Shown here piece by piece: positions 7,115-21,006 of a stretch of DNA of 23,242 bases (its first letter is position 1; the number at the start of each line of letters is the position of its first letter). Source of the stretch: a virus; the IMG/VR virus record IMGVR_UViG_3300037245_000726, positions 1-23,242 of that record; one strand, written 5' to 3'. The notes below the pieces were generated by a model that saw nothing but the letters and a program-made list of their open reading frames with translations, did not search any database and was not told the DNA's origin. The translations under genes and the position numbers were made by a program.

Positions 7115-8872
7115 ATGGCACTATGGGACGGAAAACCAGTTTACGACAGAGTTCTTGAACTGCTCGCGCAGAGGAAGAAAGCTTATGTCAAGTTCAACGC
7201 CGCCAGGGATAGCATTGTAGACTTAATGCGTCCTGATCTCGGCAGTGATACAACCCCAGACGGTGACGGCTCTTTCTTCGGCGACCAGATATACGATGGC
7301 ATCGGCTCATGGGCTGTTGGTGTTATGGCTCGTGGATTCCAGGGCGGGCTTGTAAGTGCTGACGCTGACTGGTTCTCGCATGATATGGAAGATGACCGCC
7401 TTGATGATGTCAAGGTTCTTTCCGAGTGGCAGCAAGAGATTGATAGCCACATGTCCAAGGTTTACCAAAAGAGCAATTTCTACAGAGTTCTCCCCCGCTT
7501 CACAAAGGATGGCGTATCGATCGGTTCACCTGTGATGTTTGTTGAGGAAGAGGACATACTAACCGGCGAGATTGCTTTTAAGCCCCAGCACTACAAGAAA
7601 GTATACCTGTTTTATAATGGCAATAACAAGCTTGAAGGCGTTATTATCAAGGACGATACGTGGACGATCAAGCAGATTTCCGATAAGTTCGCTCAGTCAG
7701 CAGAAGAACAGAAGGCAAAGCTTTCGACCAGCATCAACAATGAGATTGGTAACGGCAAGTATTACACAGAGAGAACGATCATCCGGGCGGTATTTAAGTC
7801 TGATAATCCCGTATGGGACGTTGAAGGGTTTAAGCGGCCCGAAGGCGATGGCGAGTGGTTAAGCGTTTACTTTGAGGAAAAGACCGAAGAGGATCGCAAG
7901 AACACACCTTTATTGACTGAACAGTATTTCAGCCGTCCGTTTGTTGTGTGGGATTACGACAAGCATGAGGATGAGTCTGTATCGAGAACCCCGGCATTCG
8001 ACGCTATCCATGATGTACTGGCACAACAGCAGGAGTCCTTAGACCTTGCCGAGAACCGGAAGTTGAAGAATAATCCTCCAATGGCCGTGCTTGAGGATCA
8101 TAGAAACATAGTAGATTTTACTCCGCAGGGCATTACGCCGATAGCAAGTGGGGACTGGAACATGTTACCCAAGGCGATCGACATGGTTGGCGACATACAA
8201 TTAACCCGCGAAAACCTTGAGTTTAACGCTGAGAAGGTTAAGCGTTGGTTCCATACCGCAGATTTTGTGAAGTTCACAGACCTGACCAATACTCTAAGAC
8301 AGCAGCCATCCGCGACACAGATAATCAAGATCGCAGCCGAGCTTGCAACACAGGTCAACCCGGGCATCGCATCCTACACAACTGGATTCCTCAAAGATGT
8401 TGATACTCGGATGATCGACATTGAAGTACGTGCAGGTCGTGGGCCGTTCCATCCGCTAAGAATGCAGGAGATTGCCGATGTTATCCGTGCTCATACAGGC
8501 GAAGAGGTCAGCAGTATCAGTGTTGTTCCGGTATTCATTGGCCAGCTTGCAAGGGCACAGAAGGTAAAAGCCGAGCTTGACCCGATCCTTGAAGGGCTTG
8601 GCGTTGGTTCTGAGATGTTCCAGATATGGCCGAACCTTAAACACGCCATAGACGAGCACGGTACGCTTCAGGACGCCTTAAAGGTTATGAACTTCCCGAT
8701 GGACAGGTTTAAGTCCAAAGACGACTACAACGAGATTGTGGAGCGCATACAGGCAGCGGAGGCAGCGGCACTGAAACAGCAACAGACACTTGAAATGTTA
8801 AAGGCTTCACCGGCGGTACAAGGCCCGGTGGATGAAACAAGTATAATGAGTCAAGTACAGGGAGCGGGATAA
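7115..8872 (+). CDS. Portal / head-to-tail connector protein
   Basis: 585 aa. Forms the dodecameric portal at one capsid vertex through which DNA enters and leaves, and on which the short tail is built. It fits the podoviral head-tail connector family (T7 gp8 type; Pfam Head-tail_con): N-terminal DRVLELLAQRKKAYVKFNAA, then GSWAVGVMARGFQGGLVSAD near residues 65-85, the DPW-like core replaced by ADWFSHDM, and a helical C-terminal half ending in a Gln/Ala-rich coiled segment (QAAEAAALKQQQTLEML). AAGGGA precedes the ATG. It overlaps the next gene by one base (TAATG). Confidence 0.9.
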   Translation: MALWDGKPVYDRVLELLAQRKKAYVKFNAARDSIVDLMRPDLGSDTTPDGDGSFFGDQIYDGIGSWAVGVMARGFQGGLVSADADWFSHDMEDDRLDDVKVLSEWQQEIDSHMSKVYQKSNFYRVLPRFTKDGVSIGSPVMFVEEEDILTGEIAFKPQHYKKVYLFYNGNNKLEGVIIKDDTWTIKQISDKFAQSAEEQKAKLSTSINNEIGNGKYYTERTIIRAVFKSDNPVWDVEGFKRPEGDGEWLSVYFEEKTEEDRKNTPLLTEQYFSRPFVVWDYDKHEDESVSRTPAFDAIHDVLAQQQESLDLAENRKLKNNPPMAVLEDHRNIVDFTPQGITPIASGDWNMLPKAIDMVGDIQLTRENLEFNAEKVKRWFHTADFVKFTDLTNTLRQQPSATQIIKIAAELATQVNPGIASYTTGFLKDVDTRMIDIEVRAGRGPFHPLRMQEIADVIRAHTGEEVSSISVVPVFIGQLARAQKVKAELDPILEGLGVGSEMFQIWPNLKHAIDEHGTLQDALKVMNFPMDRFKSKDDYNEIVERIQAAEAAALKQQQTLEMLKASPAVQGPVDETSIMSQVQGAG

Positions 8873-11165: not shown

Positions 11166-12176
11166 ATGGCTCAAAAAGATTTAGGTTCAAGATACAATCT
11201 TATCGATTGTCTCAAGAACGTACAGGACAATAAGTTTGTCCCGTGGGCAGAAACGCTCACAGAAGACAGTCCGTTCCTGTTCGACCTTCAGATTGAAAGT
11301 GCAACAGGCATTTTATCGAATGAAGGATCAAGGGAAGTATCGCTTCCAACACCGCAGATTATTAAAGTCGGCGATGGTCACGATTCCAGTACGGTTCGAT
11401 GGGACACGTTCACAGAGAACATTAGTATCTTCAAGGATAGAGTAGCGATCCCCGAAGATGTTTATGACCTCAAACCGGACAAGATTGCTTATCGTGCAAA
11501 GATCGTTGATCGCCACATGGCAGGTTTCGGCCAGGGCGTGACAAACCATTTCTTCTATGGCACGTCTGTTGCAACGCCTGAGAAGTTTGACGGCCTGGAT
11601 GTTAGGTATTCGATACCTGACGCCACCGATCCGACAAACCCATCGAGTGCAAGTGCTGATCCGTTTGTATTCGATGCCGGTGGTATTGGTTCAAACACGA
11701 TGTCTGTATGGATGATCCAGCAGGAAATGGATAAGTTTTCGGGTATTGCCCCGATCAATGATCCGCAGATGGGTATTGACAAGCAGGACATGGGCAGGGT
11801 CTATGCTGACGCAGAAAACTCTAAGGAACGTCTTGAGTACCGGACGGAACTGAAATGGAAAATCGGCTTGAACATCGCCGACCAGCGTGCGGTTGCTCGT
11901 ATTCGCAACATTCAAGCCAGCGTAGCAGAGCTTGACGCAAGCTTCTTACAGCTTATCTTCCAGGCGGAAGAAGAAGTCTTTAAGGGTTCTGGGCAGATTT
12001 TTGCTTATGTTCCAAAACGCATGATGACATTCCTGAAGATTATGGCAGAAGCCAAGCAGAATGTTATTTATGACACAAACAACATTTATGGTATTCCGCT
12101 GCATCGTATCGGCAATATTCTTCTCAGGTCTGAAGACGCGCTGAACATCACGGAAGCTGCCGTAGCTGCTGTCTAA
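11166..12176 (+). CDS. Major capsid protein
   Basis: 336 aa, the expected size for an HK97-fold coat protein. The start MAQKDLGSRYNLIDCLKN follows a CGGAG site. An early segment (WAETLTEDSPFLFDLQ) and a late one (QDMGRVYADAENSKERLEYR then LKWKIGLNIADQRAVARIRN) match the major capsid pattern of BPP-1-type podoviruses, in which a 'Y-T-x-x-x-W-x-x-G-L-x-x-x-D-x-R-x-V-x-R-I-x-N' stretch is typical. The final domain (SGQIFAYVPKRMMTFLKIMA) also fits. It follows the scaffold and precedes the cement gene. The family assignment is from memory of the motif. Confidence 0.85.
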   Translation: MAQKDLGSRYNLIDCLKNVQDNKFVPWAETLTEDSPFLFDLQIESATGILSNEGSREVSLPTPQIIKVGDGHDSSTVRWDTFTENISIFKDRVAIPEDVYDLKPDKIAYRAKIVDRHMAGFGQGVTNHFFYGTSVATPEKFDGLDVRYSIPDATDPTNPSSASADPFVFDAGGIGSNTMSVWMIQQEMDKFSGIAPINDPQMGIDKQDMGRVYADAENSKERLEYRTELKWKIGLNIADQRAVARIRNIQASVAELDASFLQLIFQAEEEVFKGSGQIFAYVPKRMMTFLKIMAEAKQNVIYDTNNIYGIPLHRIGNILLRSEDALNITEAAVAAV

Positions 12177-16255: not shown

Positions 16256-17251
16256 ATGGCTTCTGATTTAGCAGGCATTGCCAATAATGCAGGTGGCAGG
16301 ATAGGCGGGTTTGGCGACCAGTTAAGCGCAAGCGGGCAGATTACAGCTTCACAACTGACCGCTAACGCTGATCCGGTGAGCCAATGGATTAACGAGAAAT
16401 ACCCTATTATCCGGCGTAAGGTTATTGCTGACTTTGCTGGGATGAAAGCTCCTTTCAAGGAAACTCGTAAATTCGCAAGCCTTGGCCCTGATTTAAAGCA
16501 AAGCGATGTTGCGATTACGTCGATAACCTCCGTTGCTACTGTTGTCACCGTGACCACAAAGACGGCTCACGGCAGGATCACGGGCGATACGGGCTTTCTT
16601 GCAGAGATTGAGGGGGTTGACGTTGAAGGACAGCTAATAACTTCCCTAAACGGCACAACTCCGACTATCACAGTGCTTACCACAACCACCTTCACCCTGG
16701 ACGGTGTGGCGGGCGTTGACGCGACATGGGACTACACCGCTGATACAGGGATTATTAGTTATGTCCCTGAAATCGGTGCATGGAATTACGCCTTTAAGCT
16801 GCCGAGTGACTACTTTGCTGCTGTCAGGCAAACCGACGAATCACTGGCAACTACTGGCGGCGTTAAGACTAAATACCAGTTCAAGGCCATTCTGAATCGT
16901 GACGGTGACGGGTTCCTATGGCTCACCAACGATCTTACAAACAACGACGGCGACAGTGCTTATATTGAGTATTGCATCGACCAAACAACGTTTACGCTGT
17001 TTAGCCCGGGCCTTGAAGAATCTATTGCGATGCTTTTAGCTGCTGAACTATGCCCGAATCTTGGCAGGAACCTTGAAACAAGACAACAGTTGCTTTTAGA
17101 ATACAAGCAGTTGACCGTCAAAGAAGCAAAACGGAACAACCAAAGCCAGCTTGACACCACGGCTCATGTGCCGAGTAATTATCTCGGTGGCAGAACAAAA
17201 AGAATATCAGGCATATCAAGTACAACGAGGAGAAGTTCATGCAGAGATTAG
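16256..17251 (+). CDS. Tail tubular protein A / head-tail adaptor (T7 gp11-like) with inserted beta domain
   Basis: 331 aa. In T7-like phages this protein forms the ring between portal and tail nozzle. N-terminal part (about 1-82) contains GRIGGFGDQLSA and SQWINEKYPIIRRKVIADF, the helical start of the family; the later part has YAFKLPSDYFAAVRQ and, near the C-terminus, LEESIAMLLAAELCPNL, also typical. Residues about 86-155 (ITSITSVATVVTVTTKTAHG ... TTFTLDGVAG) look like an inserted beta domain of the FCCH-like type ('V-T-x-x-x-H-G...G-D...V...LNG...TFTLDGV'), which accounts for the length above T7 gp11 (196 aa). It has no signal peptide. Its end overlaps the next gene by 13 bases. Confidence 0.82.
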   Translation: MASDLAGIANNAGGRIGGFGDQLSASGQITASQLTANADPVSQWINEKYPIIRRKVIADFAGMKAPFKETRKFASLGPDLKQSDVAITSITSVATVVTVTTKTAHGRITGDTGFLAEIEGVDVEGQLITSLNGTTPTITVLTTTTFTLDGVAGVDATWDYTADTGIISYVPEIGAWNYAFKLPSDYFAAVRQTDESLATTGGVKTKYQFKAILNRDGDGFLWLTNDLTNNDGDSAYIEYCIDQTTFTLFSPGLEESIAMLLAAELCPNLGRNLETRQQLLLEYKQLTVKEAKRNNQSQLDTTAHVPSNYLGGRTKRISGISSTTRRSSCRD

Positions 17252-20200
17252 TGGTAAAATTATTACTAATAATTCTATGCTCAAGCTGTTTAGCGGTTAG
17301 CCCGACGGTAAAATCGTTTAACACAGGTCAAGTGTCGCCACTCATGGAAACAAGGACGGATTTTCAGAAGTATCAGTCGTCAAACAGGACGGTTGAAAAC
17401 ATGCTCGTCACGGTTCATGGCCCGGCACAGCGAAGACCCGGTACGAAGTTTATCGCCGAGACTAAAGACAGTAGCAGTGTATCAAGATTAATACCCTTTG
17501 AAGCCTCGACAGATGATGCTTACCCGATTGAGTTGGGCAATATCTACGCCAGATTCTACAGGGCAGGCGGGCAGGTGCTTACTTCAGGCGGCACAGAAGA
17601 TTTAACCGCTTTGGACAACATTATAGCACATTGGCTCATAAACGATAACGCCGCAAATACGCAAGTGCTTGACGATGACGGGGCTACTCATAACGGCGTA
17701 GCGAGCATTAACACAGACGTTATACATGAAGACGGTAAGGTTGGTACTGGAAGTTTCGACCTTGCCGCACAGTACGCAGTTTCAGTAGCAGACAGCGCAG
17801 ACTTTACTTTTGTTGAGGGCGTTGATGGAGATTTCAGCCTCACGGGATGGGTGTATATAAAAGACACCGAAACAGAACAGGTCATAATCTCAAAGTGGGA
17901 CGAAACCGCCGGAAGCACTGCAAGGGAATGGAAGCTTTTATTGGACGAAGACCTTAAACTAAAAATGGTACTCGCTGACGAGAGTTTGTTTTTAGATCAA
18001 GACTTAGTTGCTCAATGGAAAATGAATGACAGTCTTGCCACTGATGTTGTTTTAGACGCTCTTGCTGCTAATAATGGGGCGTTGACGGATGGAGGGGATA
18101 ACTTCACCTCAGACCATAGCGTACCAGGGATAACAAACAATGCCCTTAGCTTTGATGGTACTAACGACATTGTTACGGTTCCAGATGCGGCCGCATTCTC
18201 GTTCTCTTCTGGCGGAGGCACTGACACAGCGTTTTCGATAAGCGCATGGGTAAACATGACCGACGCTACCAGTTTTGCTATTATAAATAAGCGGGTCAAT
18301 AGTGTGTCACAAGGCGAATGGATGCTCACTACTGGAGCGGACGACAAGCTCTATTTTAATTGCACGTTGGACGATTACACTAACAGGATTGGACGTGGGT
18401 ACAACACGGCGTTAGGCGAAGGGTCATGGATACACGTAGTAGCCACCTACGACGCTACAAAAGCATCGTCTGGGATAATCCTATATGTCAATGGGTCTGC
18501 TGTCGATGATATTGACGACAATGCAGGTTCGTACACGGGCATGGTTGCTGGAAGTTCTGATGTCAGAATTGGAAGGGACGTTACAACTGGATATTCAGAG
18601 GGAAAGATTGACAACGTAATTATTTTCAATAAGAAATTATCCTCTGGCGATGTCACCCTTTTATACAACGGCGGTGCAGGCACGGAGAGTTTGGATAATG
18701 GGTCTATCTCGGCATTGTCCGATGATGCACTAACCGCAGGATGGCGATATGTTGCGATGACTTATAACGGCCAAAACAACGGCGGTGCTGCTGCGGCAGA
18801 TGACATGATATTATACGTGGACAGCGTTGTAGTCTCTTCTACGGCAACTAATCTGTCAACCTACTCGAAAATGGAGGACACTGCTGCTGTAGTTAGAATA
18901 GGCTCACAGGAATCTTCGGCAGGGGCAATCGAAAAGATATGGGCAGAGAGATTGGACGAGTTTGCCGTATTCGGCGATGTTTTGACGCCAACGGAAGTAG
19001 CATCTTTGTTCTCAGATACCTCAATATACGAAATAATAACACCTTTTAGCTCAGAAGAAATATCCGAAATACAATACGCACAGAGCGATGACGCAATGTA
19101 TATCGTAAACGGCACGGATGTCCCACAGGTCTTAATAAGAATAGAGCATGACGAGTGGACTATTGCCGACGGTGTTTTCGAGACAGGCCCATTCCAAACT
19201 GAAAATACAGATTTATCTTTAACAATAACACCATCAGCGACTACAGGGAGCGTTACACTCACCGCGAGCAGTCTTCTTTTTGAAGTTGGTCATGTTGGGT
19301 CTATCTGGGAGATAAGCCAGCCACGAGACACTTCGGTTTTCACTGGTTCTGTGACTGACGGGGCTTTGACGGGCGCGAGCACGGCTTTCTTTAATGGGGG
19401 CTACAGCTTTACCACTGACGGAACATGGGACGCGACGGTAACACTCCAAAGAAGCACAGATGTTGGCGTTACGTGGGAAAACGCATTATCACCGCTTAAT
19501 TCTACAAATTTCGACAATCCTGCCGAGACCGAAGAGACAGGGGCTATTTATAGGGTATTAATGAGCGATTGGGTTTCTGGGACTGCAAACTGGACTTTCA
19601 TTATATCAGATTCTTTGAACCGCGGCATAGTTAGAATAACAGGCTTCACCTCCTCGACCGTTACTACTGCAACCGTAATCACTGATTTAGCGAATACGGA
19701 CGCGACAAGCAAGTGGCGGGAGGGTTATTGGTCTGACTTTAGGGGCTGGCCTAAAACAATAGCCTTTCACCAGCAGCGATTAGTGTTTGGAGGGTCACGT
19801 TCCTTCCCGCAAGTCCTTTGGTTTGGCAAACAAGACCCGGACGATTACACAAACTTCAATGAAGGCACACTTGATACCTCGTCGTTCACAGCCGCCCTGG
19901 AAGGCCAAAACCCTATTCGGTGGTTATTGAGCCAAGAATACCTAACTATCGGCTCTAGCGGCTCGTGTGGCTTGTGGGGCGAGCGTGGCGTGAATGTTAC
20001 GCCAACAAGCCCAGCCTACCAAGACCAGACTTCTCACGGATCAGCGTCTATCAGCGCAGTAATGGGCGGCGATTCGATTATCTACATTGAGCGTGGGGCA
20101 AGGAACGCCAGAGAGTTATCGTTTAGTCTTCAGGTTGACAAGTATCTCTCGCCGAATTTAAGCGTTTTATCGCCGGAAATCACCGAAAGCGGGATGAAAG

Positions 20201-21006
20201 AGATCGCTTTTCAGCTTCGTCCTTCGCCGATTTTATGGTGCGTCTTAAATAATGGAGATATGGCAACGCTCACTTATCAGAGCGATCAGGCTGTTGTTGC
20301 ATGGTCAAAGCAGGTCACGGATGGAAACTTTGAAAGCGTAACCTCAGTTCCAAGCATCACCGGGTCAGAAGACGAGGTGTGGGTTATTGTACAAAGGACT
20401 TTCTCAGGCGTTAATTCCGGCAACCCCGTAAGATATGTCGAGCAGTTCCAGCCGAGGGATTGGGGTACTGATGACAATGACGCATGGTTCCTCGATTCAG
20501 CTTTATCTTACAACAGCACGCCCCAGACCTCATTTACCGGATTAGGTCACTTAGAGGGTGAAACAATGTCTATCTACGCGGACAGGCTTATCGAGAACCC
20601 GGAAATAGTCGTAAGTGGTTCAATAACGATCGACAACGCGGCATCGAGAGTGTTGGCTGGATTACCGTTTACATCAAAGCTTGAAACCTTCCCGATAGTT
20701 ATCGACCCACAGGACGCCGCTTTCAATAAGAAAATCAAATTTGTTTGGGCTGACCTGTTTGAATCTGGCGCGTTGGAATATGGTGGCTCTTCTGCCGCGA
20801 CTTTGATGACTGTCAACTTTGAAAACAGTTTGATAAACAACCCCGCCGCGACTGCACAAGACCTTTACACTTCGGCGGTATCACAGAAAAAGCTTATGTG
20901 GTTCTTTGGATCGCTAAAGAAACAAACGATATACTTGGAAACATCAGAGCCAATGCCCTTAACTGTACGCGGATTGACGCCTGATTACGACTTGACGGGA
21001 AACTAA
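17239..21006 (+). CDS. Tail tubular protein B-like tail protein with signal peptide and nested LamG domains, 1255 aa
   Basis: AGGAG precedes ATG 17239. The first 19-20 residues (MQRLVVKLLLIILCSSCLA) form a signal peptide. They are followed at once by the family start SFNTGQVSPLMETRTDFQKY and RRPGTKFIAETK. No ATG, GTG or TTG occurs between codon 5 and this conserved start, so the leader must be translated with it. Residues 127-591 are a LamG domain interrupted by another LamG domain. The tail protein then resumes at YEIITPFSSEEISEIQYAQS and runs through RGWPKTIAFHQQRLVFGGSR, typical of the family. Without residues 127-591 the protein is 790 aa, close to T7 gp12 (794). It forms the tail nozzle in T7; here it also displays lectin-like domains that may bind host glycans. 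Confidence 0.87.
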   Translation: MQRLVVKLLLIILCSSCLAVSPTVKSFNTGQVSPLMETRTDFQKYQSSNRTVENMLVTVHGPAQRRPGTKFIAETKDSSSVSRLIPFEASTDDAYPIELGNIYARFYRAGGQVLTSGGTEDLTALDNIIAHWLINDNAANTQVLDDDGATHNGVASINTDVIHEDGKVGTGSFDLAAQYAVSVADSADFTFVEGVDGDFSLTGWVYIKDTETEQVIISKWDETAGSTAREWKLLLDEDLKLKMVLADESLFLDQDLVAQWKMNDSLATDVVLDALAANNGALTDGGDNFTSDHSVPGITNNALSFDGTNDIVTVPDAAAFSFSSGGGTDTAFSISAWVNMTDATSFAIINKRVNSVSQGEWMLTTGADDKLYFNCTLDDYTNRIGRGYNTALGEGSWIHVVATYDATKASSGIILYVNGSAVDDIDDNAGSYTGMVAGSSDVRIGRDVTTGYSEGKIDNVIIFNKKLSSGDVTLLYNGGAGTESLDNGSISALSDDALTAGWRYVAMTYNGQNNGGAAAADDMILYVDSVVVSSTATNLSTYSKMEDTAAVVRIGSQESSAGAIEKIWAERLDEFAVFGDVLTPTEVASLFSDTSIYEIITPFSSEEISEIQYAQSDDAMYIVNGTDVPQVLIRIEHDEWTIADGVFETGPFQTENTDLSLTITPSATTGSVTLTASSLLFEVGHVGSIWEISQPRDTSVFTGSVTDGALTGASTAFFNGGYSFTTDGTWDATVTLQRSTDVGVTWENALSPLNSTNFDNPAETEETGAIYRVLMSDWVSGTANWTFIISDSLNRGIVRITGFTSSTVTTATVITDLANTDATSKWREGYWSDFRGWPKTIAFHQQRLVFGGSRSFPQVLWFGKQDPDDYTNFNEGTLDTSSFTAALEGQNPIRWLLSQEYLTIGSSGSCGLWGERGVNVTPTSPAYQDQTSHGSASISAVMGGDSIIYIERGARNARELSFSLQVDKYLSPNLSVLSPEITESGMKEIAFQLRPSPILWCVLNNGDMATLTYQSDQAVVAWSKQVTDGNFESVTSVPSITGSEDEVWVIVQRTFSGVNSGNPVRYVEQFQPRDWGTDDNDAWFLDSALSYNSTPQTSFTGLGHLEGETMSIYADRLIENPEIVVSGSITIDNAASRVLAGLPFTSKLETFPIVIDPQDAAFNKKIKFVWADLFESGALEYGGSSAATLMTVNFENSLINNPAATAQDLYTSAVSQKKLMWFFGSLKKQTIYLETSEPMPLTVRGLTPDYDLTGN
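17617..19011 (+). other. Outer LamG (concanavalin A-like) domain split in two, within the tail protein
   Basis: Residues 127-249 (from DNIIAHWLINDN to KLKMVLADES) give the first half of a LamG jelly roll: W at the start, GKVGTGSFDL, VSVADSADF, FSLTGWVYIKD, IISKWDETAG. Residues 486-591 give the second half: AGWRYVAMTYNGQ, DDMILYVDSVVV, VVRIGSQES, RLDEFAVFGDVLTPTEVASL. Together they make about 229 residues, the normal size for one domain. It sits between GGQVLTSGG and YEIITPF of the tail protein, at a loop where related proteins have no insert. Confidence 0.8.
17986..18693 (+). other. Inner complete LamG domain inserted into the outer LamG
   Basis: Residues 250-485 hold a full LamG pattern in order: DLVAQWKMNDS, NNALSFDGTNDIVTVPDAA, FSISAWVNMTD, IINKRVNS, GSWIHVVATYDATK, GIILYVNGSAVDD, VRIGRDVTTG, KIDNVIIFNKKLSSGDVTLL. 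It is bounded on both sides by the two halves of the outer domain, so the insertion is within a strand-to-strand loop. Confidence 0.82.

Follow-up and report, generated by a model that had tools for sequence, protein, structure and literature searches.

The tail nozzle protein encoded in the metagenome-derived virus fragment IMGVR_UViG_3300037245_000726 carries a LamG domain that is interrupted by a second, complete LamG domain, and the pair is lodged in a loop of the nozzle. This LamG-in-LamG architecture is real, and it recurs in related nozzles of other uncultured phages. In the window, by which we mean the whole analysed stretch of 23,242 nt, the nozzle belongs to an epsilon15-like virion block, in which it is accompanied by the portal, the major capsid protein, the adaptor and internal virion proteins.

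The nested insert in the window nozzle

Full-length homology and neighbourhood assign the window nozzle ORF to the T7 gp12 type. The ORF is free of internal stops and matches phrog_376 (tail protein) over residues 20-1253 (E 1.8e-163). A profile of six relatives, the window protein included, matches PDB 8ck1_A, "Tail Nozzle" (E 2.3e-205). Both matches bear out the T7 gp12-like host protein that the first-pass annotation had proposed. T7 gp12 (phrog_376), epsilon15 gp12, the Carin1 nozzle and 8ck1 are homologous to the window nozzle on both sides of the insert, and the gene order is common to all, with the nozzle beside a gp11-like adaptor and before the internal virion proteins. In contrast to the window, the loop of these known nozzles is without LamG, and the sites in epsilon15 and Skadi are empty. 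Positions of the features are listed in Table 1.

Table 1. Features of the window, with the parts of the nozzle protein and the basis of each assignment
Feature	Position	Strand	Residues or size	Basis
Portal / head-tail connector	7115..8872	+		Pfam Head-tail_con, E 3e-40
Major capsid protein, epsilon15 gp7-like	11166..12176	+		Pfam GP7, E 1.7e-47
Tail adaptor, gp11-like, adjoining nozzle upstream	16256..17251	+		phrog_394, E 5.3e-12
Tail nozzle protein, T7 gp12 / epsilon15 gp12 type	17239..21006	+	1255 aa	phrog_376, 8ck1_A
N-terminal stretch, Sec signal peptide-like	17239..17298	+	1-20	Translation, crude hydropathy scans
Nozzle part N-terminal to insert	17302..17586	+	22-116	Alignment with empty-site homologues
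Outer LamG, first half	17596..17985	+	120-249	Joined-halves Pfam match, L109 alignment, model strands
Inner, complete LamG	17986..18693	+	250-485	Laminin_G_3 69.1 bits, VIA-align Z 21
Outer LamG, second half	18694..19023	+	486-595	Laminin_G_3 profile 75-151, L109 alignment
Remaining nozzle after insert	19024..21003	+	596-1255	phrog_376, empty-site homologues, 8ck1_A

Comparison with two empty-site homologues (L001 and L002, ~60% identical) delimits the whole insert to residues 117-595 (17587-19023), following ...FYRAGGQVLTSGG and preceding YEIITPFS. The pair had been placed at 17617-19011 (residues 127-591), with outer halves at 127-249 and 486-591 around an inner domain at 250-485. These approximate limits hold, and only the extent of the insert was refined, which also corrects the host protein from ~790 aa to about 775 aa.

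Pieces of the insert were scanned separately with Pfam Laminin_G_3 (PF13385; gathering score 27.6 bits). The inner LamG matches full-length and above gathering (69.1 bits, profile positions 1-150 of 151), and the outer halves, when joined with the inner domain left out, match without a break along positions 16-151 (48.9 bits). On its own, the second outer half reaches 30.8 bits, while the first gives no Laminin_G_3 match in the same piece scan. The whole protein has no Laminin_G_3 or LamG match in Pfam or NCBIfam scans, so a routine scan overlooks the nested LamG. The joined outer halves also align with the uninterrupted LamG at the same site of the L109 nozzle (46% over 239 aa, no large gap).

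A single-sequence AlphaFold prediction of residues 100-620 failed (pLDDT 31). An AlphaFold2 model was made from 15 nested sequences, with single-LamG rows excluded from the input, so that pairing was not forced by the alignment (mean pLDDT 83.3, pTM 0.60; pLDDT at least 70 in 440 of the 520 residues). In this model the inner LamG has nine predicted strands before and six after a hairpin at model residues 277-284, followed by a helix. The outer halves repeat this series: in the first, eight strands plus a short helix extend to position 148, and in the second, six strands begin at 389 and a helix spans 485-491, the inner domain taking the place of the hairpin. The strand order fits nesting, and it would fit closure of an outer jelly roll by the two halves.

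Fold comparison by VIA-align covered essentially the inner part (about model residues 149-383), and the absence of the outer LamG from the resulting list of PDB folds is not evidence. The inner LamG matches domain 4 of AbnA (5hon), a LamG-type domain of a GH43 arabinanase, among its best-ranked hits (Z 21, model residues 155-379, rmsd 2.8-3.0 Å, 17-18% identity), and other jelly rolls as well. The AbnA domain is terminal in a secreted enzyme, unlike the phage inner LamG. Taken together, Pfam pieces, the L109 alignment and the nested-only model agree with the proposed two-level insertion, a LamG within a LamG within the nozzle; neither two side-by-side LamG domains nor a first half folding alone was seen in any of them.

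States of the nozzle loop among relatives

IMG/VR was searched with a protein and with alignments, and ORFs were labelled by small HMMs for the nozzle flanks and LamG halves. Pattern scans kept 80 of 591 candidates in one case and 80 of 81 in another. The survey set holds 157 ORFs, 127 of them distinct; after dropping duplicate contigs and one-flank nozzles, 113 with both flanks were left. Two scans started from nested inserts and favoured nested forms, so the following frequencies are those of this sample and not of nature. The loop is empty in 55 of the 113 distinct nozzles (gap of 2-8 residues), has an insert of E1_FCCH size in 24 (21 with a gap of 78-85 and three with 148-150), and holds one uninterrupted LamG in seven (gap 241-246). 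Nested LamG-in-LamG, in which two first halves precede two second halves (N-N-C-C), occupies it in 26. In one further nozzle, L170, an F5/8 type C-like domain (L170:5555-6037; Pfam E 0.003, below gathering) interrupts a single LamG, but at another of its loops. One and the same site is thus found with zero, one or two LamG domains, in line with the successive loop insertions suggested beforehand.

The smaller E1_FCCH-type inserts share the insertion point of the LamG insert, although they are of a different fold and uninterrupted. The sole small insert scanned with Pfam (L034:4917-5174) matched E1_FCCH at 3.8e-12. In phage tail and fibre proteins, Laminin_G_3 halves are contiguous, as N-C or tandem N-C N-C, unlike in the window. 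Among the survey ORFs outside nozzles, N-N-C-C was found in one protein only (L195), where it is arranged differently.

All 15 members of the nested-insert alignment match Laminin_G_3 and N-N-C-C is present in 26 distinct two-flank nozzles, which places the nesting beyond chance. The window is a metagenome-derived fragment, and such an arrangement might be mimicked by contig chimerism or by random read-through in frame. We give this virtually no probability, since it is refuted by recurrence: the 25 other distinct nested nozzles come from 21 IMG dataset numbers (hand count from contig names), the insert length between flank models is narrow (474-495 aa in 25 of 26), and the window ORF lacks stops. 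The exception in length is L010, nested as well, with an extra stretch within its inner LamG (gap 553).

Searches elsewhere also returned LamG proteins. With the insert as a query, a cultured-phage collection gave six records, all of them cyanophage LamG proteins (27-32% identity), and the nozzle insert was not found there. A genome scan gave two loci, both LamG proteins in MAG contigs, with no nozzle flank model match beside the LamG.

Several other placements of LamG were observed in the survey. The extra stretch of L010 (L010:6742-6990) has a counterpart in L112; it comprises ~70-100 residues inside the first part of the inner LamG, has no Pfam match in L010, and would be a third nesting level if it is a domain. 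The L127 nozzle has a third LamG in a later loop (residues 1157-1375), and in L154 the insertion loop is empty and a LamG lies farther on (residues 774-1001). In L195, an 822-aa non-nozzle protein (L195:5905-8370), LamG is apparently split by a beta-propeller-like region enclosing a complete LamG; this region is GH43/130-like by eye and without a Pfam match.

Pairing and history of the LamG halves

The order N-N-C-C by itself fits equally well a nested pair and a crossed (swapped) one, in which the first N belongs with the first C and the second N with the last C. Pairings were scored against a profile built from the seven uninterrupted nozzle LamG domains, in 25 of the 26 nested loci (L010 left out, as also in the direct-repeat test below); N1 and C1 denote outer halves, N2 and C2 inner ones. 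For the window, the outer pairing scores 245 bits, the inner 125, and the crossed ones 204 and 168. Over all loci, crossed pairs nearly match (medians 214 and 216 against 234 bits), and the outer N1C1 beats N2C2 in 19/25 loci, N1C2 in 21/25 and N2C1 in only 17/25. This score comparison supports nesting, if not strictly.

Divergence was compared pairwise over the 26 nested loci (Spearman, 300 permutations). Distance matrices of all four half-domains correlate with each other (0.39-0.68), as could also be the case in a crossed pair, but the correlation is strongest between N1 and C1 (0.68) despite ~240 residues between these halves. Partial correlations point the same way, with 0.60 for N1-C1 given C2 against 0.27 for N1-C2 given C1, and 0.38 for N2-C2 given C1 against 0.23 for N2-C1 given C2. 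Furthermore, N2 and C2 of tail-fibre affinity fall in the same eight loci, and the inner LamG by itself makes a complete Pfam domain and a jelly roll. We consider crossed pairing very improbable, and read the halves as nested in what follows.

Divergence of the two nozzle flanks is correlated (0.44; none of the 300 permutations as high), whereas between nozzle and LamG parts the values range from -0.11 to 0.09. LamG divergence is thus uncoupled from nozzle divergence, and the cassette therefore appears to have been swapped between nozzle lineages. As an illustration, L091 shares 73% identity with the window in N1 and 37% in the flank that follows the insert; for L101 the N flank is 69% identical to that of the window and N1 48%.

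A tree of 108 nozzles (five short ones dropped) puts the 29 LamG-bearing nozzles within a set of 34 (SH-aLRT 97). Nested, single and empty nozzles are intermixed in it and at least 18 state changes are required; the window nozzle groups with the empty-site L001 and L002 (SH-aLRT 97). Trees of half-domains are poorly resolved: in the N tree the outer halves are not gathered in a single clade, and singles are scattered. In the C tree, all 26 C1 fall in a starred set of 32, together with one C2, one further sequence and the C halves of four of the seven singles. N2 and C2 of the same 8/26 loci, including the window, join LamG domains of other phage proteins, although the supports, 90 and 86, do not reach the program's star.

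As judged from these trees, in which it lies among LamG domains of tail-fibre type, the window inner LamG belongs to a tail-fibre-like lineage and did not arise as a fresh duplicate of the outer domain; the inner slot was thus re-filled separately in the window's group. The history may have begun with the insertion of a first LamG into the nozzle loop, followed by insertion of a second LamG into the first. The pair may then have spread from one nozzle lineage to another, with later replacement of the inner domain in the window's group.

In the window, the inner domain is flanked on either side by a 9-bp direct repeat, GAGAGTTTG (17980-17988 and 18685-18693). We rejected it as a target-site signature, since such repeats are hardly commoner in nested loci than in control windows: the control fraction is no higher than 0.02 in only 2/25 of these loci.

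Possible role of the nested pair

The T7 nozzle is described (PMC6702177) as a hexamer located below the adaptor ring, with a beta-propeller core, a platform and, close to the adaptor, a dock for the fibres. If the window nozzle likewise forms a hexamer, the tail would be ringed by six LamG pairs, 12 jelly rolls in all. Such a ring could bind surface glycans or another cell-envelope ligand, auxiliary to the adjacent fibres, and nesting would hold the inner domain off the tube by two strand connections, with no free end. Given also the lectin-like fold, auxiliary receptor binding would be the likeliest role of the cassette; a multivalent glycan-binding role of the pair may be inferred in the same way.

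The fibre dock of T7 gp12 also agrees with another possibility, namely that the insert decorates the tail for structural or docking purposes, as a tail-ring stabiliser or fibre anchor, and is not a ligand-binding module. The same loop holds E1_FCCH-type domains in other nozzles, and we know of no ligand for these. However, a cassette that moves among nozzle lineages and has its inner domain replaced resembles receptor-binding parts more than a docking surface, which has to match its own fibres, and the closest solved folds include the arabinanase domain, in a structure (5hon) solved with an arabino-oligosaccharide, although fold alone does not show function. We regard the decoration as unlikely, if worth keeping in mind. 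The reading we favour, and think probable, is a domain-accepting nozzle loop with an exchangeable nested LamG cassette whose hexameric ring would serve as an auxiliary receptor binder. Of this reading, the hexameric ring and its binding are the inferred part. What the data show is that a loop near the N-terminus of the podophage nozzle takes whole domains, that the outer LamG houses the second complete LamG between its predicted strands nine and ten, and that the pair, recurrent in many phages, behaves as a cassette decoupled from the history of its carrier nozzle.

Signal-like N-termini were also observed, as called by our own crude and uncalibrated hydropathy rule. By this rule, Sec-type N-termini are found in 17/23 nested and 3/5 single nozzles, against 5/55 empty and 0/24 with small inserts. 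Among long ORFs in loci of at least 8 kb, the signal pattern is present in 39/193 (nested), 6/39 (single), 8/277 (empty) and 0/204 (small-insert). In the window, signal-like starts belong to putative virion proteins at 17239, 12754, 13806, 14123, 15390 and 22117 and to the ORF at 2319. Many of these stretches end in AxA, and the capsid and adaptor are without them. This enrichment in the LamG-bearing group is unexpected for a tailed phage. A broader proposal, which we hold to be rather doubtful, treats the loop as an exchangeable receptor-binding slot that allows nesting: by stacking domains (window, L010, L112 and L170), and not only by swapping fibre tips, these phages would alter what the tail ring binds on surfaces. 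In this view the export-type signal peptide, borne by the nozzle in most of them, would mean a tail part handled at or across the host membrane.

Nested insertion and phage-tail LamG domains are each known, but as far as our search of the open-licence PMC literature reaches, their combination, an exchangeable nozzle cassette with one fold nested in the same fold, is undescribed; the search turned up no paper dealing with nested LamG of a nozzle and none dealing with nozzle signal peptides. It is unusual for a domain to be split by another of its own kind. Here, one site in related phages preserves every step, from empty through one LamG to LamG-in-LamG and a likely further level, and the order of successive domain insertions is therefore testable. 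The nozzle ring would be a second place, besides the fibres, where podophages may alter binding.
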